Source of the DNA: Luteitalea sp. TBR-22
GTDB taxonomy: Bacteria > Acidobacteriota > Vicinamibacteria > Vicinamibacterales > Vicinamibacteraceae
Direction: 5' to 3'
Assembly (NCBI RefSeq): GCF_016865485.1
Contig: NZ_AP024452.1
Location: forward strand, 828,501 to 892,500
DNA: 64,000 nucleotides
The translations under genes were made by a program, and so were the position numbers. The notes under the pieces were generated by a model that had not been told where the DNA came from, did no database searches, and saw only the letters and a program-made list of their open reading frames with translations. This document shows, piece by piece, positions 17,945-27,983 of the stretch. Numbering within the stretch: position 1 is the stretch's first letter; every line of letters starts with the position of its first letter.

Positions 17945-19333
17945 TCAGATCAGGGTCAGCGTGTCGTTGACCTCGAGCGCCATGGCTTCCTGCCGGAGCT
18001 CGCCCTTCAGGACCTTCACGAACGCCACCACCTCGTCGAGGTGCCGGTGCAGCGCCGCCCGGCTCACGAACGTGTTGACGATGAAGACCTGCTCGGCCAC
18101 GAGGCCAGCTACGTGACTGTTCCAGACGCCGGTGGCTTCGCGGCTGGTGGCGCCGCCGAATCGCTTGGCGAGGAAGTCGAGCGCTCGCTGCACGTGGGCC
18201 GTGGTGTCGGCCCGCGCATCGACGTCGACGGTGGTCGGAATGAACAGGGCGATGCGGTTGTTGCGCTCGAGCCGGTTGGAGATGCGATCGACCGCGTCGT
18301 GCAAGGCTGCGGGGACGTCGCCGCCGCTCCGCAGCCACTCGCCGAGGGCGGCCTCGTCGTCCACGCTGGGGATCTCCACGTCATTGCCGTCGGCCAGCGT
18401 CTCGCCAGACGCGGCCCCACCGCTGACCACGGTGAGGACCGTGGCGTCAGGTCGCAGGTACCGACGGAGCGTGCCCGCCGCGGCGCGCGCGGCCCGCATC
18501 GCGTCGGCGTCGCGCGGGACCAGCAGGAGCACATCGGTCGCCTCGTCCAGCAGGAGCACCGCCTGCGGATCGGGCGGACGAGCCAGGTCCATTGCGTTGG
18601 TGATGACCAGGTTGTCGTAGATCGAGACGAGCTGCTCGATCGCCAACGACGCGGTCTGGAGCGAAGTGGTGTCGGGCGTCGCCGCGAGCACCTCGAAGCC
18701 GTCCGGATGCGCGTGGTTTCCCTCCGTAGCCGGGAGCTGCAGTGCCGCGGCCATGCCCGTGCGGTCGTTGAACGCCGTGTACGCGGTGCGCGTGCCGGTG
18801 GCCAGGCGCAGCCGACGCGCCAGCGCCAGGGCCAGCGCCATGGCGCCGCCCTCGTCGGGCGCATGGCACACCAGCACGCACCGGGCCTGCCGGCCTTCGC
18901 GCGTGAGGCGCCTGTTGGCATCCACCAGATACCCACCCAGCAATCGGGCGAGCGCAATCGCCGCCGCCGGCCAGGCCAGGAGCAACTCGAGGAAATCGGC
19001 GCGATGGAAGGCCAGGGCGTCGACGGTGCTCACGGCCTCGACGTTGGCCGACCGCGGCCGATCCTCGAGGATGCCGACTTCGCCGAACGTCGCCCCGGTC
19101 ATCAGGTAGCCGAGCGTGAGTGCCTCGTGTCGCCCGATCACCCGCTTGACGGCGACGATCCCGTTGACGAGCAGGTAGACCGCATCCGACGGGGCGCCCT
19201 GGCAGACGATGACGTCGCCCGGTTCGAACCGCCGGACCGTCGCCCGAGCGGCCACCGAGGCCAGCGTCTCCGGCGGCAGGTCGGCGAACAACGCCGACGA
19301 GCCGAGTGCCGTCACGATGTCTGCGTGTGTCAT
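17945..19333 (-). CDS. cNMP-binding protein with a Rossmann-like middle domain and a novel C-terminal domain
   Basis: A 462-residue cytoplasmic protein. Residues about 10-125 are a cyclic-nucleotide-binding domain (LFADLPPETLASVAARATV, phosphate-cassette-like FGEVGILEDRPRSANVEA). Residues about 145-330 look like the nucleotide-binding-like segment found after cNMP domains in NTE-type patatin proteins (RCVLVCHAPDEGG, YDNLVITNAMDLARPP, DVLLLVPRDADAM), but no patatin GxSxG follows. Residues about 365-462 form a small domain (NRIALFIPTTVDVDARADT, KRFGGATSREATGVWNS) of no known function. The ATG at 19333 is chosen because the cNMP domain begins soon after. It is convergent with the exported methyltransferase. 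Confidence 0.75.
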   Translation of the reverse strand: MTHADIVTALGSSALFADLPPETLASVAARATVRRFEPGDVIVCQGAPSDAVYLLVNGIVAVKRVIGRHEALTLGYLMTGATFGEVGILEDRPRSANVEAVSTVDALAFHRADFLELLLAWPAAAIALARLLGGYLVDANRRLTREGRQARCVLVCHAPDEGGAMALALALARRLRLATGTRTAYTAFNDRTGMAAALQLPATEGNHAHPDGFEVLAATPDTTSLQTASLAIEQLVSIYDNLVITNAMDLARPPDPQAVLLLDEATDVLLLVPRDADAMRAARAAAGTLRRYLRPDATVLTVVSGGAASGETLADGNDVEIPSVDDEAALGEWLRSGGDVPAALHDAVDRISNRLERNNRIALFIPTTVDVDARADTTAHVQRALDFLAKRFGGATSREATGVWNSHVAGLVAEQVFIVNTFVSRAALHRHLDEVVAFVKVLKGELRQEAMALEVNDTLTLI

Positions 19334-19479
19334 GGCCAGGGTGCAGGCGCGCGTCGTGACCGCGAGGCACCGACTGGGCGCGCGAGCGAACGGGCATGAT
19401 GATCCGGGCGTCGGCATCGGTCAAGCCGGCGCCCCGACGGACAGGTGCACGCGAGGCCCGCTGCCTGTACGCTGTGGGC

Positions 19480-20664
19480 GTGTCCGTCCGACTCTATTAC
19501 GACGACCCTGCGTTGCTCGCCTTCGACGGCATCGTCACTGCGTGCGAGCCCGATCCGGACGGGCGCGGCCATCGCGTCGCCCTCGACCGGTCCGCGTTCT
19601 ACCCGACGTCCGGCGGACAACCCCACGATCTCGGGCACCTGCGCGTGGACGGGCATGTGCTGCCGGTGTCGGACGTGGTCGCCGACGAGCGCGACGAGGT
19701 GTGGCACGTCGTCGCCGAGCCGATCGAGGTCGGCCGGCAGGTGGTCGGCGAGATCGACCGCGGCCGGCGCCACGACTTCCGCCAGCAGCACACCGGCCAG
19801 CACATCCTGTCGGCGGCCTTCGACTACCTGCTCGAGGCGCGGACCGAGAGCGTGCACCTCGGGCTCGAGGCCTGCACGCTCGACCTGCACCGGGAAGTCT
19901 CGGCCGAGGAGTGCCGTCGGGCCGAGGACTACGCCAACTTCGTCGTGTTCGGCAACCGGCGCGTGAGCATCCGCTTCGCCGACGCCGACACGCTGGTGGA
20001 CGAACCTCGACTGCGCAAGCAGACCGGGCGCACCGGCATGGTTCGGCTCATCGACATCGAGGATCACGACCTCTCGGCGTGCGGCGGCACGCACGTGCAC
20101 AGCACCGGCGAAGTCGGGATGATCGTCGTGCGCGCCACCGAGCGATTCCGTGGCGGCACCCGCGTGACCTTCCTGTGCGGCCGCCGGGCGCTCGAGAGCT
20201 ACCGGGACCTCCGCGACGCCGTCGACGCCTCGGCGCGCGCGTTGTCGGTGGCGGCCACCGACGTGCCCGACGCCATCGCGAAGCTCCGCGACGACCTGAA
20301 GCAGGAACAGCGGCGCGCGCGGGAACTCGCCGATCGCCTCGTGACGCTCGAGGCGGCGTCGCTCGAGGCGCGCGTCGATCCTGCCGGGGTGCTCGTCGCA
20401 CACCTGCCCGATGCCGACGCACAGGGCGTGCGGCAGGCCGCATCGCAGCTGGTGTCGACGCCCGGCCGCCTGGTGGCGCTCCTCGGTGGACCGTCGCCGC
20501 ACGCGCTGGTGATTGCCCGCAGCGCCGATCGCGAGGCCGACGCCGGCGCGCTGGTGCGGCAGGTGTGCGCCGCGCATGGCGGCAAGGGCGGTGGGCGCCC
20601 CGACCTCGCGCAGGCCGGCGGCGTCGTCGTCACCGTCGATCAGTTGCGGTCGTTCCTGGGGTAG
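19480..20664 (+). CDS. AlaX-type alanyl-tRNA editing hydrolase with DHHA1 domain
   Basis: A 394-residue trans-editing protein that hydrolyses mischarged Ser- or Gly-tRNA(Ala). Zn ligands are seen in RQQHTGQHILSAAF (about residue 104) and in SACGGTHVHSTGE (about residue 200), the same arrangement as the editing domain of AlaRS. A coiled-coil (KLRDDLKQEQRRARELADRL) leads to a DHHA1-type C-terminus ending RPDLAQAGGVVVTVDQL. This long form corresponds to AlaX-L. GTG 19480 is chosen over upstream codons. The stop TAG is part of the GTAG head of a REP element. The last 150 bases are repeated at 24828-24977. Confidence 0.9.
   Translation: MSVRLYYDDPALLAFDGIVTACEPDPDGRGHRVALDRSAFYPTSGGQPHDLGHLRVDGHVLPVSDVVADERDEVWHVVAEPIEVGRQVVGEIDRGRRHDFRQQHTGQHILSAAFDYLLEARTESVHLGLEACTLDLHREVSAEECRRAEDYANFVVFGNRRVSIRFADADTLVDEPRLRKQTGRTGMVRLIDIEDHDLSACGGTHVHSTGEVGMIVVRATERFRGGTRVTFLCGRRALESYRDLRDAVDASARALSVAATDVPDAIAKLRDDLKQEQRRARELADRLVTLEAASLEARVDPAGVLVAHLPDADAQGVRQAASQLVSTPGRLVALLGGPSPHALVIARSADREADAGALVRQVCAAHGGKGGGRPDLAQAGGVVVTVDQLRSFLG
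20500..20649 (+). repeat. Left copy of the editing-gene 3'-end repeat flanking the island
   Basis: This 150-bp segment encodes PHALVIARSADREADAG through VTVDQLR of the editing hydrolase. It matches 24828-24977 at 138 of 150 positions. Of the 11 codons that differ, only one changes the amino acid (Glu to Asp). The copies are direct repeats about 4.3 kb apart. Confidence 0.9.
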
Positions 20665-20762
20665 GGCGCGGTGTCCCACCGCGCCGTTGGGGACGGCGGG
20701 ATGAGGACATCCCGCCCTACCTGGGTGACGCCTCGAGGTAGGGCGCGGTCTCCGACCGCGCC
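20661..20762. repeat. Three GTAG-type REP palindromes (family GGCGCGGT)
   Basis: Element 1 is GTAG at 20661-20664 with ggcgcggtg-tcc-caccgcgcc to 20685. Element 2 is inverted (ggcgggat...atcccgccctac, 20695-20720). Element 3 is GTAG at 20738 with ggcgcggtctccgaccgcgcc to 20762. TAG of element 1 is the stop codon of the editing gene. Confidence 0.8.
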
Positions 20763-20806
20763 GCTGTGGAGCCCGGCCGGCCCGGCCGGCCGGGCTCCAC
20801 AGCGGC
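20760..20806. repeat. Perfect 23-bp inverted repeat with a 1-base centre
   Basis: Arms at 20760-20782 and 20784-20806 pair perfectly (core gctgtggagcccggccgg), abutting the third REP. It could form a strong hairpin or cruciform and may act as a bidirectional terminator between the editing gene and the toxin-antitoxin operon; no T-run is present. Confidence 0.7.
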
Positions 20807-20832
20807 CCTGGCCGGTTAGCGGCCAAGGCGAT

Positions 20833-20875
20833 GGGTGTCAGCGTCGATGGTCGCCACGACCTCGCGCATGCGGCG
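20833..20875. repeat. 43-bp imperfect direct repeat, left of higBA
   Basis: The segment beginning gggtgtcagcgtcgatgg resembles 21680-21722 (gggcgtcagcggcgatgt) at about 37 of 43 positions. The two copies flank the higBA operon in the same orientation. Either may be a remnant of a degraded gene. Confidence 0.55.
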
Positions 20876-20904
20876 TGAGGATGTCGTGACGCTCCATCAC
20901 CGCG

Positions 20905-21204
20905 TCATGCGCGCTGCGCCAGGGGGCGCACCCTGGGCCGAGCCCCGCGGGCCTTCAGCGCATGCCAGAGGTCCCACTTGGCCTGGAGCGTCAGCCAGAT
21001 CTCGGCGTCCCACTGCGTCAGCGCCTCGAAGAGCAACGCCGTGTCCGCGCTCACGCCTCGACGTCCCCGGACGATGGCGTTGAGGCGCTGGAACGGAATG
21101 TTCATCCGCCGGGCGGCCTCGACCTGCGACACGCCCAGCGGCTCCAGGAATTCCTTCAGGAGCATCTCACCGGGGTGGGTCGGCGGACGGTGGGTCGGAA
21201 GCAT
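20905..21204 (-). CDS. higA: HigA-type antitoxin (XRE family)
   Basis: A 99-residue antitoxin of the HigA/VapI group. It begins with HPGEMLLKEFLEPLGVSQVEAA and has the helix-turn-helix ARRMNIPFQRLNAIVRGRRGVSAD in two parts, followed by ALLFEALTQWDAEIWLTLQAKWDL, which is diagnostic. It neutralises the toxin and represses the operon by binding the operator. It lies 10 bases after the toxin stop; toxin-first order is typical for hig operons. The module sits at the left edge of an accessory island. Confidence 0.92.
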   Translation of the reverse strand: MLPTHRPPTHPGEMLLKEFLEPLGVSQVEAARRMNIPFQRLNAIVRGRRGVSADTALLFEALTQWDAEIWLTLQAKWDLWHALKARGARPRVRPLAQRA

Positions 21205-21214
21205 GTCGATGCCC

Positions 21215-21505
21215 TCAGTGGTAATCGGTGCAGCGCACGTCGAACGCGTCGGAGCCTTCGAACCGAAAGACGATTCGATACTGATCGTTCACGCGCACGG
21301 CGTGCTGGCCTGCCAGATCGCCAGTGAGCGCGTGCAGGCGGTTTCCGGGCGGCACCCGCAAGTCGTCGAGCCTCGTGACCGCGTCGATCTGATCCATCTT
21401 TCGTCGGACGATCGGCCACAGTTCCTTCGGGATCCGTCGGGCGGCTCTCGAGTTGACACCGTTCCAGATGTCCCGGGTCGCGTCGTCGGCCAGCGTCCAA
21501 ATCAC
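21215..21505 (-). CDS. higB: HigB/RelE-family toxin (mRNA interferase)
   Basis: A 96-residue RelE/ParE-superfamily toxin: WNGVNSRAARRIPKELW, the linking segment KMDQIDAVTRLDDLRVPPGNRL and the strand HAVRVNDQYRIVFRFEGSDA, which match the HigB group that cleaves mRNA at the ribosome. It ends VRCTDYH. The GTG start at 21505 lies just downstream of an inverted repeat that probably holds promoter and operator. It is co-transcribed with higA. Confidence 0.9.
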   Translation of the reverse strand: MIWTLADDATRDIWNGVNSRAARRIPKELWPIVRRKMDQIDAVTRLDDLRVPPGNRLHALTGDLAGQHAVRVNDQYRIVFRFEGSDAFDVRCTDYH

Positions 21506-21511
21506 CGCGTA

Positions 21512-21542
21512 GCACTATAGCACGGTTAGTGTGCTATTGTGC
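21512..21542 (-). promoter_or_regulatory. Probable higBA operator and promoter
   Basis: Inverted repeat gcactatagcac (21512-21523), spacer ggttagt, gtgctattgtgc (21531-21542), with one mismatch in 12-bp arms. On the minus strand TATAGT within the near arm is a good -10 box, 10-15 bases from the toxin start. Antitoxins of this type bind such palindromes over their own promoter. Confidence 0.65.
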
Positions 21543-22302
21543 CGCGCTCGAGCGTGCACGTGCGCTCGAGCGGCCGATATCGGAAGACCCGCGCGGCCTG
21601 CCGATGCGCTTCCGAACGATTTCGCCAGGACCTTGCGTTCGGATTGCTGTGCGGCGTCGACGCGACCGCACAGGTTGCTGGGCGTCAGCGGCGATGTTCG
21701 ACACGACCTCGTGAATGCGGCGCGATGCTGTGCTGGCGCGTCCGCGTTCTTGAACGCGCGCAGGGTGTTGGCGATCCATCCCGCTCGGCGAGCGAGACGG
21801 GCCCCGTGCTGACAGTACGTGGCTCGGTCTTCGGCTTCACCCTCCCGTAACACTCGCTGCTGCTGGTTGACCACGGCGCTATCGGAGAACTGGATTGCCT
21901 CCCCGCCTACGCCATCGTTCGGATGGACTCTTGGTCTGAAATGTCACGGCCGGCGGGCGCGGTTCGTAGGACGGGTGAACCAGCTTCGACAAGCGCGGCC
22001 GGCTTCAGCACACAGCTGGATCGATCGGGCGCGCACTAACTGAGCTGCACACAGGGAGACGCGGGCAAATCACAGGAGCTATCCGCGCGCCCGGCACGAG
22101 CAGCAGAAAGGCTTCCACCTCATCAGATTCGCCACGCTGTCGTTGCTTAGTTGTTACTGGACGACACGACTCTCCTTCGGTATCATCCGCCCCAACCACA
22201 TCGTTGCTCGCCAAAGCATGTAAGTAACAACATGTCGGCTTGGGCGCCTCAGGTGTGCGTTCAGCACGGGCTGCGCTATGTCCTCACAGAGGGGAGCGAA
22301 AG
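21543..22302. other. Long gap without a convincing gene
   Basis: About 760 bases of lower GC than the surroundings. It holds the second copy of the 43-bp repeat (21680-21722) and several short open frames on both strands with no recognisable domain, ribosome-binding site or codon bias. A frame on the minus strand (21515-21874) overlaps the higBA operator and switches similarity between frames, as expected for a decayed gene. A good ribosome-binding site (GAGGGGAG) at the right end belongs to the next gene. Confidence 0.5.
21680..21722. repeat. 43-bp imperfect direct repeat, right of higBA
   Basis: Counterpart of 20833-20875, with about six mismatches in 43 bases, in the same orientation. Confidence 0.55.
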
Positions 22303-23802
22303 ATGATCTCTCGTCGATGCCTTGGTCCGCTCGCCGTGATGCTTTCCGTGGTGCACGTTTGGATGCCAGCAATAGCGCAGACATGCACGACGCCGCTGTT
22401 CTCCAGCTTGTCAGGCAGTCGCGGTGGTAACACCGTGGTCTTGAACCAGCCGCAGCCGAACGGTAATCCCAACTATGAGTATGTGCCGTCAATCATGCAG
22501 GACGGCGTATATCGGATGTGGTTCTGCCAAGGCAACTACGGACCAGCTGGCCAGTACTACGGCGACCGCATTTCGCTAAGCACCGCCACTTCCTTATCCG
22601 GGCCTTGGAGCGCGGCCACGGCGGTGTTCCTACCGTCAGGCGGCAGTGCGTCGAACTTCGACTACTTCCACGTCTGCGATCCCTCGGTCGTGCGCGTCAA
22701 CGGCGTGTACTACATGTACTACGGCGGGCACAACAACATTCCCTATGGTCAGCCCGGTCATCGGACTACGGCGATTGGCGTCGCGACGAGCACGAACGGT
22801 ACCTCCTGGACCCGGATGAATGGCGGCGCTCCGATCATCACGGCGTTCCTTGATGAGAACAATCCTGGGTACGCCGCCGAGCCGAACAAGTACGGCGCGG
22901 GCCAGCCAAGCGTTGTGTTTCTGGATGGGTACTTCTATCTCGCATACACCGATACCACCGGCTTCGACAGCAACCCGGTCAATGGCGCCGGCATCTATGT
23001 CCTGCGATCGACCGATCCGACCTTCCAGTCGGGCGTAGAAGAGCTCACCTCGGCGGGATTTGAGACGAGGACAGCGCTGACATGGACCAGGCATTCGATC
23101 ATTGAGGCATTCTCGGTCGACATCCAGTTCAGCGATATGGTCGATGGCTTTGCAATCGTGGACGTAACATCTCCTGGCGGCATCAAGCACATGCGCGTGA
23201 GCTTCTTCAATCGTGCCATGACAAGTCATCTCGTCACATCGCCGCTGTCCGAGATCTACATCGCCGGCGACTGGTCCGAAGGTCCCGGCATTGTCTCGCG
23301 GCCCGACAAACACTCGGTTCCCTCCGCTACCAACTGCGACCGAATCCCGATCGACATCATCCGGTCCGTCGGCGCCTCGGTGTTCGATGGTCTCGCGCAC
23401 GTCGGGGTGGACATCAACACCGGGCTATCGTGCTCCTGCGCCCGATTGCCCAAGGTGTTCGAGGATCAGGGACTCGCGCCGACGGGCTTCCCGTGGGCAA
23501 TCGTGAAGGATGGACAGCGGTTGCACTTCCAGCTGCTAGGGCCGATGCAGCAGCTGACCAAGAACTTCTACCCGGTCACGAACACGATCTACTCGGCGAT
23601 TCCTGGAGGCGCGTCGATGTTCTCAGGTGACCCGGTCTACTACTCAACTGGCACGCCAGGCGCCTTCTACCTGAACGATGGGCGGCTCTGGCCGGTGAGT
23701 TGTCTGGCGGCGGTGACTGCCAACAACTCAAGCATGACGTTCATCCCGTTGTGGCAGTGGTCGTCGTACCCCATCGGCCCCGCGCTGTTCTGCGTGCAGT
23801 GA
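22303..23802 (+). CDS. Secreted five-bladed propeller protein, GH43-like
   Basis: A 499-residue exported protein: signal peptide residues 1-25 (ending MPAIAQ), then repeated blades recalling glycoside hydrolase family 43/62/32 folds: YEYVPSIMQDGVYRMWFCQG, HVCDPSVVRVNGVYYMYYGG, TAIGVATSTNGTSWTRMNGG and AGQPSVVFLDGYFYLAYTDT. The Asp of CDPSVV is where GH43 enzymes keep a catalytic base. The C-terminal third is less typical. Possible role: arabinan or xylan degradation, or glycan binding; not certain. Codon use is visibly less GC-biased than in flanking genes, consistent with transfer. Start ATG 22303 has a strong GAGGGGAG site. Confidence 0.7.
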   Translation: MISRRCLGPLAVMLSVVHVWMPAIAQTCTTPLFSSLSGSRGGNTVVLNQPQPNGNPNYEYVPSIMQDGVYRMWFCQGNYGPAGQYYGDRISLSTATSLSGPWSAATAVFLPSGGSASNFDYFHVCDPSVVRVNGVYYMYYGGHNNIPYGQPGHRTTAIGVATSTNGTSWTRMNGGAPIITAFLDENNPGYAAEPNKYGAGQPSVVFLDGYFYLAYTDTTGFDSNPVNGAGIYVLRSTDPTFQSGVEELTSAGFETRTALTWTRHSIIEAFSVDIQFSDMVDGFAIVDVTSPGGIKHMRVSFFNRAMTSHLVTSPLSEIYIAGDWSEGPGIVSRPDKHSVPSATNCDRIPIDIIRSVGASVFDGLAHVGVDINTGLSCSCARLPKVFEDQGLAPTGFPWAIVKDGQRLHFQLLGPMQQLTKNFYPVTNTIYSAIPGGASMFSGDPVYYSTGTPGAFYLNDGRLWPVSCLAAVTANNSSMTFIPLWQWSSYPIGPALFCVQ

Positions 23803-23812
23803 GTTGCATCTT

Positions 23813-23840
23813 GAGGGAGCGGCGGCCACGCCGCCCCCTC
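23813..23840 (+). terminator. Hairpin after the propeller gene
   Basis: gagggagcggcg and cgccgccccctc form a near-perfect stem 11 bases after the stop codon. No T-run follows, so termination is uncertain. Confidence 0.45.
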
Positions 23841-23922
23841 AACTCGGGCTGGCTTCAGGCCGTGGACAGGTATACTGCGCCCGCCGCCCCGGACAGGCCG
23901 AGGCGCGTCACCAATCCCACGC

Positions 23923-24684
23923 ATGGCCGAGTCCTTCCGTTTCCGGCAGATCATCAAACGCGTCGTTCGAGGTGCGTACTGGCTCTGGACGCGTCGTCTA
24001 GAGGCGGACGCCATCCAGATGCCGCGGTCCGACTACAAGCGGACGTGGCAGCACCTGTCCGAGTCTGAGAGCGACGCCAAGATGTTTGTGGCATCCACAA
24101 CAGACGAGCAAACGTTCGAACGATCTGCGGCCTACACACGGGGCTTGCTGGAACGCTTCGTCGGACTGCATGCCAGCGACGTCGTCCTGGAGATCGGCTG
24201 TGGCGTGGGGCGCATCGCTCCGGAGGTTGCGCCGCTCGTCAAGACGTGGATCGGCACCGACATTTCAGCGAATATGCTCGGTCACGCCAAACGACGCTTG
24301 GCGACACTGCCGAATGTACGACTGGTCGAGTTGGCGGACGTCGGGCTGGCCGAGATCCCGGACGCGTCTGTAGATGTCGTGTACTGCACGGTCGTCTTCA
24401 TGCACCTGTACGAGTGGGACCGCTACAAGTACGTCACCGAAGCGCACCGGGTGCTGAAGCCGGGCGGTCGGTTGTACTGCGACAACATCGACATCACGTC
24501 GACCTTGGGATGGACGATGTTTTCGGACGCCGCGTCGTATCCACCCAAGGAGCGGCCGTCGTACCTCCCGATGCTCTCGAGCGCGGACGAACTGCGTGTC
24601 TTCGGCACCAAGGCCGGGTTCTCCACAGTCATGATCGAGCAGTTCGATGACGCGTGGGTCGCTTTGGTCGCGAGGAAGGTATAG
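23923..24684 (+). CDS. SAM-dependent methyltransferase (island)
   Basis: A 253-residue methyltransferase. A basic N-terminal segment (FRFRQIIKRVVRGAYWLWTRR) precedes DYKRTWQHLSESESDAKMFV, a sequence often seen in methyltransferases from polysaccharide or glycolipid clusters. Motif I is VVLEIGCGVGRIAPEVA, followed by WIGTDISANMLGHAKRRL, VDVVYCTVVFMHLYEWD and HRVLKPGGRLYCDN. It has no signal peptide. It follows the propeller gene in the low-GC island, with TATACT at 23871-23876 as a possible -10 box. Substrate unknown, possibly a sugar or lipid. Confidence 0.85.
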   Translation: MAESFRFRQIIKRVVRGAYWLWTRRLEADAIQMPRSDYKRTWQHLSESESDAKMFVASTTDEQTFERSAAYTRGLLERFVGLHASDVVLEIGCGVGRIAPEVAPLVKTWIGTDISANMLGHAKRRLATLPNVRLVELADVGLAEIPDASVDVVYCTVVFMHLYEWDRYKYVTEAHRVLKPGGRLYCDNIDITSTLGWTMFSDAASYPPKERPSYLPMLSSADELRVFGTKAGFSTVMIEQFDDAWVALVARKV

Positions 24685-24807
24685 CACCGAGCTCGTACTC
24701 CAAGGGCTTCGTGACTTGCTGCATCCGAGCTGATACCAGGGGGGGTACGTGTACGCGACGAAGCGACCGTCATGCAGTTGCTCGCGCAGCCACCGAAGCG
24801 AATCGAA

Positions 24808-24995
24808 TGCTCCGAGGGGCGGCACCGCATGCGCTCGTGATCGCGAGGAGCGCCGATCGTGATGCCGACGCCGGCGCGCTGGTGCGACAGGTGTGTGCCG
24901 CGCACGGCGGCAAGGGCGGTGGTCGCCCCGACCTCGCGCAGGCCGGCGGCGTCGTCGTCACCGTCGATCAGTTGCGGGAGATCATCGCAACGTGA
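24808..24995 (+). pseudogene. 3'-end fragment of an AlaX-type editing gene
   Basis: The sequence encodes LRGAAPHALVIARSADRDAD and continues to VTVDQLREIIAT, then TGA (24993-24995). It matches the last 60 or so residues of the intact editing hydrolase at 19480-20664, with 92% nucleotide identity over 150 bases and almost only synonymous changes. No upstream part of the gene remains, so it cannot be functional. Its very end (EIIAT instead of SFLG) differs, indicating a different original allele. It marks the right border of the island. Confidence 0.85.
24828..24977 (+). repeat. Right copy of the editing-gene 3'-end repeat
   Basis: Direct-repeat partner of 20500-20649 with 12 mismatches in 150 bases. 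Between 24996 and 25101 only short, weak inverted motifs around cagacgttca are seen and no gene. Confidence 0.9.
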
Positions 24996-25101
24996 CGTGA
25001 AATAGGAGAATCTCAGACGTTCAGAATTTCATGGCGGCCTCGGCACACCGGGGCCAGGGCTGACAGTGAGATTGTGAACGTCTGCAGTTCTGCAATTCTT
25101 C

Positions 25102-26592
25102 CTACGACGCGCAGACGAGGGCGAGCGCGTTCTCGACCACCGCGTCCACCTCGCGGTTGGGCAGCAGGAAGTTGTTGGCGATCACCGAGAAGACGTACTC
25201 GGCGCCCGACGCCGACGTGATGTAGCCCGAGAGCGCTCGCGCGTGCGCGAGGGTTCCCGTCTTGGCCAGCAATCGACCGGCGCAGGGCGATCCCTTGAAC
25301 CGCGTGCCGATCGTGCCGTCGGTCCCGGCAATCGGCAGCGTCGCCCTGAACAGCTCTCGGTGCGGCGGTTCCCGCATGGCGTGCAGCAGCGTCGTGATCG
25401 CACGCGCGGTCACGAAGTCGCGCCGCGAGAGGCCGGACCCGTCGAGCTCCTGCACGGTGCCTGCGGGCACGCCCACCCCGGCCAGTGCCTGCTGCACCGC
25501 GGTGCGCGCCGCAACCATCGTGGGCCCGCCAGTCGCGTCGGCGGCGAGCGCCCGCAGGAGGATCTCGCCGTACAGGTTCTGGCTGACCTTCATGAATCGC
25601 ACCGCCAGGTCCGACAGCGGCGGCGAGTCGTGCACGAGCAGCGGCGTGGCGCCATCGACGTCCGGCATGGCCTCGACCCGCGTGCGGCCGCGCACCTCGA
25701 TCCCCTCGTCGGCAAGTGCCATCCGCAACGCGCCCAGGAAGTACGTCGCCGGATCCGGGACGGCCACCGTCCGCTCGACCGGGCTGCCGCCCTGCGGCAC
25801 CGTTCCCGACACGACGATGACCGGGCTGCCGAGGGCGCGCGACACCTCGACGGCGGGCGTGGCGTCGGTCGTCGTGCGCACGTCGGCCTGCAGCGCCAGG
25901 CCGGCCGACGACGGCCACAGAGCGACGGTGGCGGGGCGCCCGGCCACCCCCGGGGTGACGCGCACGCGCACGACGTTCTCGTGGAAGGTCAGGCCGGAGT
26001 AGGGTGCCGCGTAGCCGAACGCAAGATCGTCCCAGCTCCAGGAGTCGCCGAGCCACTCGCTGCCGAGGCGTGTCGGGTCGCCGACCAGATCGCCCTCGAT
26101 GCGGCTGATGCCGTGCGCGCGCAACCGGCGCGCCCAGTCCCTGAAGCTCGCCAGCGGGTCCTCGCCGCGCCCGATCGACGGGTCCGCGCTGCCGATCACC
26201 ACGAGATCCCCTCGCAGGCTGCGACCCTCGATCGGTCCCGTGGCATGCAGGCGGGTGTGGAAGCGGTGGTTCCACCCCAGGCGGGTCGCTGCCGCGGCCA
26301 GCGTCACGATCTTCATGTTCGAGGCGGGCACCACGAGCCGGTCGGCATTGCGGGTCGCGAGCACGGCGCGCGTGTCGGCGCGCTCGAGGCGGACGGCCCA
26401 CAGCACTGCCCCCTCGGTGGCCGCGAACCTCGCATCGAATGCCGCGCCGAGACTCGCGTCGGGCGAAGGCGCGGCCGTCGTCGAGGCGGGGAGGGTGCTG
26501 GTCGACGGAGGCGGTGCCTGGCGGGTGGCGCAGGCGCCGAGGGCGAGCAGGCCGATCGCGGCCGCGCCGAGGCGGCCGCCAATCGGGATCAC
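25102..26592 (-). CDS. dacB: PBP4-type D-alanyl-D-alanine carboxypeptidase (family S13), probable lipoprotein
   Basis: A 496-residue penicillin-binding protein. Catalytic motifs are SxxK in VVPASNMKIV (S91, K94), SxN in KVSQNLYGEIL and KTG in LLAKTGTLAHARALSGY. It trims or cross-cuts peptidoglycan peptides in the periplasm. The N-terminus (LGAAAIGLLALGAC) has a lipobox with Cys21, followed by a Pro/Thr/Ser linker, which predicts a lipid-anchored form; most PBP4 proteins are only secreted. The GTG start overlaps the DUF4340 stop by four bases (GTGA), placing it as the last gene of the ABC/Gld operon. Confidence 0.92.
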   Translation of the reverse strand: MIPIGGRLGAAAIGLLALGACATRQAPPPSTSTLPASTTAAPSPDASLGAAFDARFAATEGAVLWAVRLERADTRAVLATRNADRLVVPASNMKIVTLAAAATRLGWNHRFHTRLHATGPIEGRSLRGDLVVIGSADPSIGRGEDPLASFRDWARRLRAHGISRIEGDLVGDPTRLGSEWLGDSWSWDDLAFGYAAPYSGLTFHENVVRVRVTPGVAGRPATVALWPSSAGLALQADVRTTTDATPAVEVSRALGSPVIVVSGTVPQGGSPVERTVAVPDPATYFLGALRMALADEGIEVRGRTRVEAMPDVDGATPLLVHDSPPLSDLAVRFMKVSQNLYGEILLRALAADATGGPTMVAARTAVQQALAGVGVPAGTVQELDGSGLSRRDFVTARAITTLLHAMREPPHRELFRATLPIAGTDGTIGTRFKGSPCAGRLLAKTGTLAHARALSGYITSASGAEYVFSVIANNFLLPNREVDAVVENALALVCAS

Positions 26593-27983
26593 GGCCTGGT
26601 CCCTGGGGCGGGCGACGAGGCCGGCGACGGGGCTGCAGTCGTCGGGGTCGAGGCAGCGGGCGCGAGGAGCGACAGGACGTCGTTCACCGCCGGCGAGCCG
26701 AGGGTGGCGGCGCCGGGCTCGCCGTCGCGCGTGGCGTACATGCGGTTGTTGGCCTGCACGATGGCGACCCGTTCCTGCGTGCCGCTGCCGAAGGTGGCCA
26801 CCGCGCTGAGCACCGGCGTCGCGCCGGCGGGGACCGCCTCCACCCATCCTTCTGCGCGCAGCGTGCCGAGGCGGCTGGCGATGTCGTCGATCGTCGCCGC
26901 CTTCACGGAGGTGTCGGCGGGCGCGACCTGCACCCACGTCTCGGTGGCGGTCGCGCCGGTGCCGGCCTTCTTCTTCTCGAAGGTCCGGCTGTCGTCGCCC
27001 CACATCAACACGAGGCGCGACAGGTTGAACATGCGATAGGCGAAGACGTCCTTGGCCCGATACGCGGCGGCCGCCCGCTGCAGGTCGTCGGCCAGGCCCT
27101 TCTCCACGGTGAACACGATCGGCCGCGCGGCGTCCTTCATGTGCACCGCGGTGTCGCCACTCGGGCTGCCCACGAACACCTGCGCCAGCGTCTTGCCACC
27201 CGCCATCGCCGTGACGGTGGTCCTGGCGGGCTGCAGGCCGTACGTGTCGAGCGTGGCCGGCTGCTCGGCGACGATCGCCTGCATCTGCCCCGACGACAGG
27301 CGGGTCAGCAGCGAACTCACCTCCGCGGCATCGGCCCGCGCCTGGAGAGGCTGGACGAGGCGCCAGTCGTCGCCCTGCTTCTTCAACTCGATCGTGCCGG
27401 GCGCGCCGATGATCGCCAGGTGATCCACGGCCTCGCGATCCATCGTCACGATGGCCTTGTTGCGCAACTGGAACGTCGTGCGGTCGAGGCTCTGCTCGAG
27501 CCACGACGGCACGGTGAAGACCCGCGGCGCGTCGGCCAGCTTCGCGTAGGTGTCGCCGCCAGTGGCGGTCTTCGATCCGAGCAGCAGCGTGCGCGTGGTG
27601 GTGCCGGCCGTGAACGTCACCGAGACGCGTGGCGCGTGCAGCCCGAACGTCTCGAGGTTGGCCGGCTTCTCGTCGATGACGCGCGTCAGGTCGAGCGAGG
27701 CCAGGTTGCTGGTCACGCCCGACACTTCGGTGGCGTCGGCGGGCACCTGCACCGGCGACTCGATCGTCCAGCCGACGCCCTGCTTCTTCAGGCGTGTGCG
27801 ATCGCCATTGGATCCGTGCAGCTCGAGGGCCGCGATCGCCTCGGCCTTCAGGTCCGTGAACACCTTCTCGGTCTTCGGCGCGTCCTCGTCGGTCACCTCG
27901 CGCTTCATCTCGACGAACCAGATGTAGGCGCCGAGGGCGGCGGCGAGGGCGAGCAGGATGAGGGTGGAGCGTCCGCGGTTCAT
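26589..27983 (-). CDS. DUF4340 domain protein
   Basis: A 464-residue membrane-anchored protein: one N-terminal helix (STLILLALAAALGAYIWFVE) and a large external part containing repeated DUF4340-type units (VTDEDAPKTEKVFTDLKAEA, IESPVQVPADATEVSGVTSN, RLVQPLQARADAAEVSSLLT). DUF4340 proteins nearly always accompany GldG-like ABC accessory genes, as here; their job is unknown. The ATG at 27983 overlaps the stop of the GldG gene (ATGA). The C-terminus is an Ala/Thr/Pro-rich tail. Confidence 0.9.
   Translation of the reverse strand: MNRGRSTLILLALAAALGAYIWFVEMKREVTDEDAPKTEKVFTDLKAEAIAALELHGSNGDRTRLKKQGVGWTIESPVQVPADATEVSGVTSNLASLDLTRVIDEKPANLETFGLHAPRVSVTFTAGTTTRTLLLGSKTATGGDTYAKLADAPRVFTVPSWLEQSLDRTTFQLRNKAIVTMDREAVDHLAIIGAPGTIELKKQGDDWRLVQPLQARADAAEVSSLLTRLSSGQMQAIVAEQPATLDTYGLQPARTTVTAMAGGKTLAQVFVGSPSGDTAVHMKDAARPIVFTVEKGLADDLQRAAAAYRAKDVFAYRMFNLSRLVLMWGDDSRTFEKKKAGTGATATETWVQVAPADTSVKAATIDDIASRLGTLRAEGWVEAVPAGATPVLSAVATFGSGTQERVAIVQANNRMYATRDGEPGAATLGSPAVNDVLSLLAPAASTPTTAAPSPASSPAPGTRP

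Follow-up and report, generated by a model that had tools for sequence, protein, structure and literature searches.

An insertion at the 3' end of an alaX-type gene in Luteitalea sp. TBR-22, possibly a one-off import by homologous recombination

The window analysed here is the whole 64,000-nucleotide stretch comprising bases 828501-892500 of the single 6,468,984-base contig of Luteitalea sp. TBR-22. It contains an intact alaX-type editing gene, the 3' end of which recurs further downstream, just ahead of dacB. The DNA between the two copies differs in composition, with a GC content of 58-66% at about 21.0-24.7 kb as against 67-76% on either side. In window coordinates, the features of the locus are:

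19480-20664, plus strand: alaX-type editing gene, intact (Pfam DHHA1, tRNA_SAD and tRNA-synt_2c)
20482-20649, plus strand: left repeat copy, within alaX (from sequence comparison)
20596-20649, plus strand: 54-bp tract identical in both copies, the proposed place of crossover or conversion (from the mismatch pattern)
20650-20664, plus strand: left tail, SFLG-stop, proposed to have been brought by the insert
20661-20830, plus strand: REP-like repeats and a 47-bp palindrome (20760-20806), the REP overlapping the alaX stop
20905-21204, minus strand: higA antitoxin (TIGR02607, E 4.2e-26)
21215-21505, minus strand: higB toxin (PF05015, E 4.6e-16)
22303-23802, plus strand: secreted protein with a weak likeness to five-bladed-propeller glycosidases and phosphorylases (signal sequence recognized by eye)
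23923-24684, plus strand: class I SAM methyltransferase (PF08241, E 1.2e-20)
24810-24995, plus strand: right copy, the displaced alaX tail without gene body, ending EIIAT-stop
24924-24977, plus strand: the identical tract in the right copy
24996-25101, no strand: native stretch between alaX and dacB, containing AATTCTG-like sequence and resembling those of G001 and G004
25102-26598, minus strand: dacB, a PBP4-type carboxypeptidase and the native right neighbour, upstream end approximate (TIGR00666, 288 bits, cut-off 107.8; PF02113, E 1.8e-99)

The start of alaX is probably the GTG at 19480, judging by the relatives, in an open frame that begins at 19396. An initial annotation, made from the letters of the DNA, had described the interval as an accessory island holding higBA, a secreted GH43-like protein and a methyltransferase, and lacking an integrase. 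The profile matches to TIGR02607, PF05015 and PF08241 confirm the toxin-antitoxin pair and the methyltransferase. The absence of an integrase is likewise borne out, as neither PF00589 nor PF00239 has a match in the island; nor is there a PF00589 match near it, as would be a hallmark of an integron. The description of the secreted protein stands only in part: a likeness to glycosidases and phosphorylases was found, but it consists of weak matches (21.9 bits to a single NCBIfam phosphorylase profile whose cut-off is 450, and E 0.011-0.043 to PDB entries), and no Pfam family matched. The predicted fold of this protein had a mean pLDDT of 28 and gave no usable model.

The distribution of the cargo is patchy. 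The secreted protein has matches in 3 of 193 genomes of the class and 16 of 396 genomes of the phylum (TBR-22 being counted in both), none in plasmids or phages, and no relative in the named genome collection. Its only close homologue, in genome G005, is truncated where it adjoins a DDE transposase gene; this homologue is followed by one of the methyltransferase. The methyltransferase itself has a 72% identical counterpart at a different locus of Luteitalea G002, about the same likeness as that between the alaX proteins of TBR-22 and G002 (70%); G001, G003 and G004 contain distant methyltransferases only. Neither the methyltransferase nor alaX has a relative in viral contigs, and alaX has none in the named genome collection. 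For higBA, TBR-22 has two relatives elsewhere, at about 1.555 and 1.566 Mb, with 81-82% identical DNA. The pair at alaX is flanked by direct repeats of 61 nt (20832-20892 and 21679-21739; 80% identity), which perhaps mark the borders of a higBA unit. The stop codon of the left alaX copy lies inside a REP-like element, and a run of REP-like repeats starts there. Units of this kind (GTAGGGCGCGGT, up to 2 mismatches) number six in the window, at 20661-20830, 41823, 56027, 56065 and 61308, and 138 in the genome, compared with none for the reversed control. An Rfam search at E up to 1 returned four matches, spread over two miRNA families and a CRISPR-repeat family; all are below the gathering scores, and we attribute them to chance.

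The alaX protein is 63-76% identical in the four other Luteitalea genomes examined (G001-G004), and in all four the gene runs directly into a convergent dacB, as had been predicted for an empty site. The gaps between the two genes are 113 bp in G001, 10 in G002, -23 (an overlap) in G003 and 22 in G004; in TBR-22, 106 bp separate the stop of the right copy (24995) from the dacB stop codon (25102). From the empty site in all four relatives it follows that the 4.33 kb (counting one repeat) was almost certainly inserted at the end of alaX in the TBR-22 lineage. The 106-bp stretch resembles its counterparts in G001 and G004, so that the right copy is the one that bears the native dacB flank. The further expectation that empty sites would carry one of the two end variants failed, since neither tail has an exact occurrence in the four relatives. 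On the other side of alaX, a gene for a protein with a cyclic-nucleotide-binding domain (17945-19417) separates a ubiE-like gene from alaX in TBR-22 alone; the ubiE-like gene and alaX are adjacent in G001, G003 and G004, and the intervening gene has only distant matches in G001-G006.

To judge by a search of 193 class genomes with the alaX C-terminus, 162 of which had a match, a second copy beside alaX occurs only in TBR-22 among the matches listed, and we have set aside the idea of a hot spot at alaX on this ground. Other cargo between the same repeats, which had been expected, was likewise absent among the matches listed for these genomes. A suspected second copy in G047 proved to be a 127-bp exact overlap of two contigs and was taken as an assembly break. 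Our literature search found no paper that names alaX as an integration site.

The repeat extends, ungapped, over 168 nt (20482-20649 and 24810-24977) and is 89% identical. It had been described as the last 150 bp of the gene, recurring with 12 mismatches in 11 codons, 10 of them synonymous. These counts hold for 20500-20649 against 24828-24977, the one non-synonymous change being GAG/GAT (E/D), but the repeat ends 15 bp short of the last base of the alaX stop codon, and the tails beyond it differ. That the right copy has no gene body upstream and different final codons was seen correctly. Within the first 18 nt of the repeat (20482-20499) there are 6 more mismatches, which affect 4 codons and change the amino acid in 3 of them; the right copy is ill-defined at its 5' edge. 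The mismatches are unevenly spread: all fall within 20485-20595, and the final 54 bp (20596-20649 and 24924-24977) are identical.

In the whole genome, the repeat segment finds its two copies and one 41-bp match at 83%, which sits inside an unrelated long reading frame and was dismissed as chance. In a survey of 464 kb around the locus (same-strand pairs of at least 60 bp, spaced 0.5-50 kb, E at most 1e-10), 16 pairs passed the filter, and among those longer than 100 bp only one was more alike than the alaX pair. Besides the alaX pair, three were inspected as sequence and the rest by coordinates. The three are a simple repeat, a short one of 91-94 bp, and the more-alike pair, which comes from the interior of a short-chain dehydrogenase gene. 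The dehydrogenase fragment measures 153 bp and is repeated at 96% identity about 3.4 kb away (genome positions ~1023296-1026855).

Both copies lack a codon that is present in G001-G004, and because this deletion is common to them and absent from the four relatives, they are to be read as sister alleles, nearer to each other than to any of the four. The synonymous character of 10 of the 11 changed codons over 150 bp supports the earlier view that both copies evolved in working genes. With the split placed by us at the GGKGGG motif, 9 of 26 upstream codons differ between the left and right copies and 1 of 24 downstream (Fisher 0.011), and the terminal run of 18 identical codons has a chance of 0.0035 for that end; both P values are modest and uncorrected for the inspection of both ends. 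The 14 other pairs that can be formed from the left copy, the right copy and the four relatives show no such contrast (Fisher 0.24 to 1). The simplest reading of the identical 54-bp tract would be a crossover, or a later conversion between the copies. If the crossover took place in the tract, the upstream part of the left copy would be native, and that of the right copy would have come with the insert.

The two copies could be read in two further ways. In one, alaX would long have had a functional tandem copy, acquired from a sister lineage or by duplication, whose body was later replaced by the cargo; the synonymous bias does require that both copies once worked. We consider this improbable, as two alaX genes are found in none of G001-G004, as the scheme needs an extra deletion and a separate insertion, and as it leaves the identical 3' tract unexplained unless conversion is added. 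Alternatively, the right copy could be a small gene in its own right, a free C-terminal DHHA1-type piece: it is open in the alaX frame from an ATG at 24810 to 24995, with one conservative change in 50 codons. However, a recently displaced tail accounts for the same facts, no clear ribosome-binding site is apparent by eye, and the alaX loci of the relatives examined show no free gene of this type, so that we regard an independent gene as very improbable indeed.

A stronger rival is an island inserted by an integrase, of the kind that e14 forms at icd in Escherichia coli K-12, of which the integrase has been deleted or acts from elsewhere. One end of such an element would lie in alaX and supply its new tail, and the other would be the displaced tail. 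The e14/icd footprint, which PMC6379469 also describes, is similar in size and kind of change: analysed in the same way, it consists of a 165-bp repeat with 12 mismatches in 11 changed codons, 9 synonymous and 2 D/E, and as at alaX there is an intact gene, a displaced tail on the far side and a nearly equal number and kind of differences. As expected of an e14-type island, the TBR-22 insertion has an uninterrupted site in relatives (all four of the other genus genomes) and is bordered on each side by a copy of the gene end. Since e14/icd leaves nearly the same footprint, the repeat alone cannot separate integrase action from homologous import. More generally, islands are often found in protein genes, which they restore, according to PMC12884075; there the gene is kept whole, as at alaX, but the islands are defined by an integrase, which is absent at alaX. 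TBR-22 does have integrase genes near tRNA-Met, tmRNA and tRNA-Leu, as well as integrase-less islets at a tRNA-Arg gene.

Other evidence speaks against such an island. Whereas e14 encodes intE and xisE, the TBR-22 island contains no match to PF00589 (6 matches in the genome, the nearest about 171 kb away) or PF00239 (4 matches, the nearest about 1.4 Mb away). The annotation of e14 places its boundary at the 5' end of the e14 repeat, and mismatches continue to nucleotide 143 of 165; the alaX repeat has the reverse arrangement, with the 5' edge most diverged and identity at the 3' edge, beyond which only about four codons differ. The core is found nowhere else in the TBR-22 genome. The initial proposal of a specific element that integrates and brings a replacement gene end thus lacks support on two counts, the lack of a recombinase match and the position of the identical tract, and we hold the remnant of an integrase-driven island to be a plausible but less likely alternative.

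The tRNA genes of TBR-22 offer other loci for comparison. At the tRNA-Arg(TCT) gene (genome positions 1567555-1567631, minus strand; locus 1548000-1567900), three copies of its 41-nt 3' part lie downstream, at 1565440-1565480, 1558818-1558858 and 1556013-1556053. They bound three islets in tandem, measuring about 2.1, 6.6 and 2.8 kb, along with more conserved non-coding repeats, and in none of the three is there a PF00589 or PF00239 match. One islet contains a transposase with an rve domain and another a HepT-like protein. The first islet holds a higBA pair related to that at alaX, and a further such pair is located just past the outermost tRNA copy. At tRNA-Leu (3788257-3803349), an integrase gene is found at a distance of about 1.1 kb, and the 3' part of the tRNA gene (58 nt) recurs at 88% identity about 15 kb off; this locus is likely an ordinary tRNA island. 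It is conceivable that the alaX insertion and the tandem at tRNA-Arg, which have related higBA pairs, belong to one set of integrase-less islets in TBR-22, each bordered by duplicated gene 3' ends and moved by a recombinase acting in trans or by natural transformation; we doubt that this is so.

The explanation that we favour, with about even confidence, is a one-off import by recombination from a sister lineage, without an integrase, which agrees with the other option of the initial annotation, recombination at that gene; this fits the locus better than a specific integrating element. A single-crossover or one-sided import is expected to leave the gene intact at one side and a truncated tail at the other, with identity where the crossover occurred, and it needs no recombinase gene. 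The source would be a sister Luteitalea lineage that had this DNA downstream of its alaX, and the donor fragment would have arrived with about 170 bp of the donor alaX end and recombined within the 54-bp identical tract. This could have happened by a single crossover of a joined circle, or by one homologous end combined with one illegitimate join near 24810. The fragment would have supplied a compatible end, keeping alaX whole, and higBA, the secreted glycosidase-like protein and the methyltransferase would be passengers. Both routes, single crossover of circularised DNA and homology-facilitated illegitimate recombination, appear in PMC3240628; that study concerns laboratory plasmid transfer in E. 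coli, whereas donor and intermediate in TBR-22 are inferred.

At the locus itself we find the insertion, the displaced tail, an intact alaX that continues into inserted DNA, a tract of identity between otherwise diverged copies, a second copy that is truncated on one side with native flank beyond, and no recombinase match. The 5' part of the right copy still shows coding constraint, which favours fresh capture from a working donor gene over the baggage of a long-lived element: with the crossover in the tract, such an element would have kept about 110 bp of alaX sequence, useless to it, upstream of its core. Later conversion between the copies could also have produced the identical tract, and would look alike. 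Given the TBR-22-specific gene immediately upstream, it is possible that the imported block was larger and included the alaX body. No donor genome with this cargo directly after alaX was found among the five genus genomes, including TBR-22.

The insertion at alaX is real, but the event is of a familiar kind. It matters because it shows clearly, for a little-studied phylum, how acquired DNA that carries no recombinase has entered a conserved gene and left it unbroken. The uneven distribution of differences along the repeat is a possible means of telling recombination imports from integrase islands, which otherwise leave near-identical footprints.
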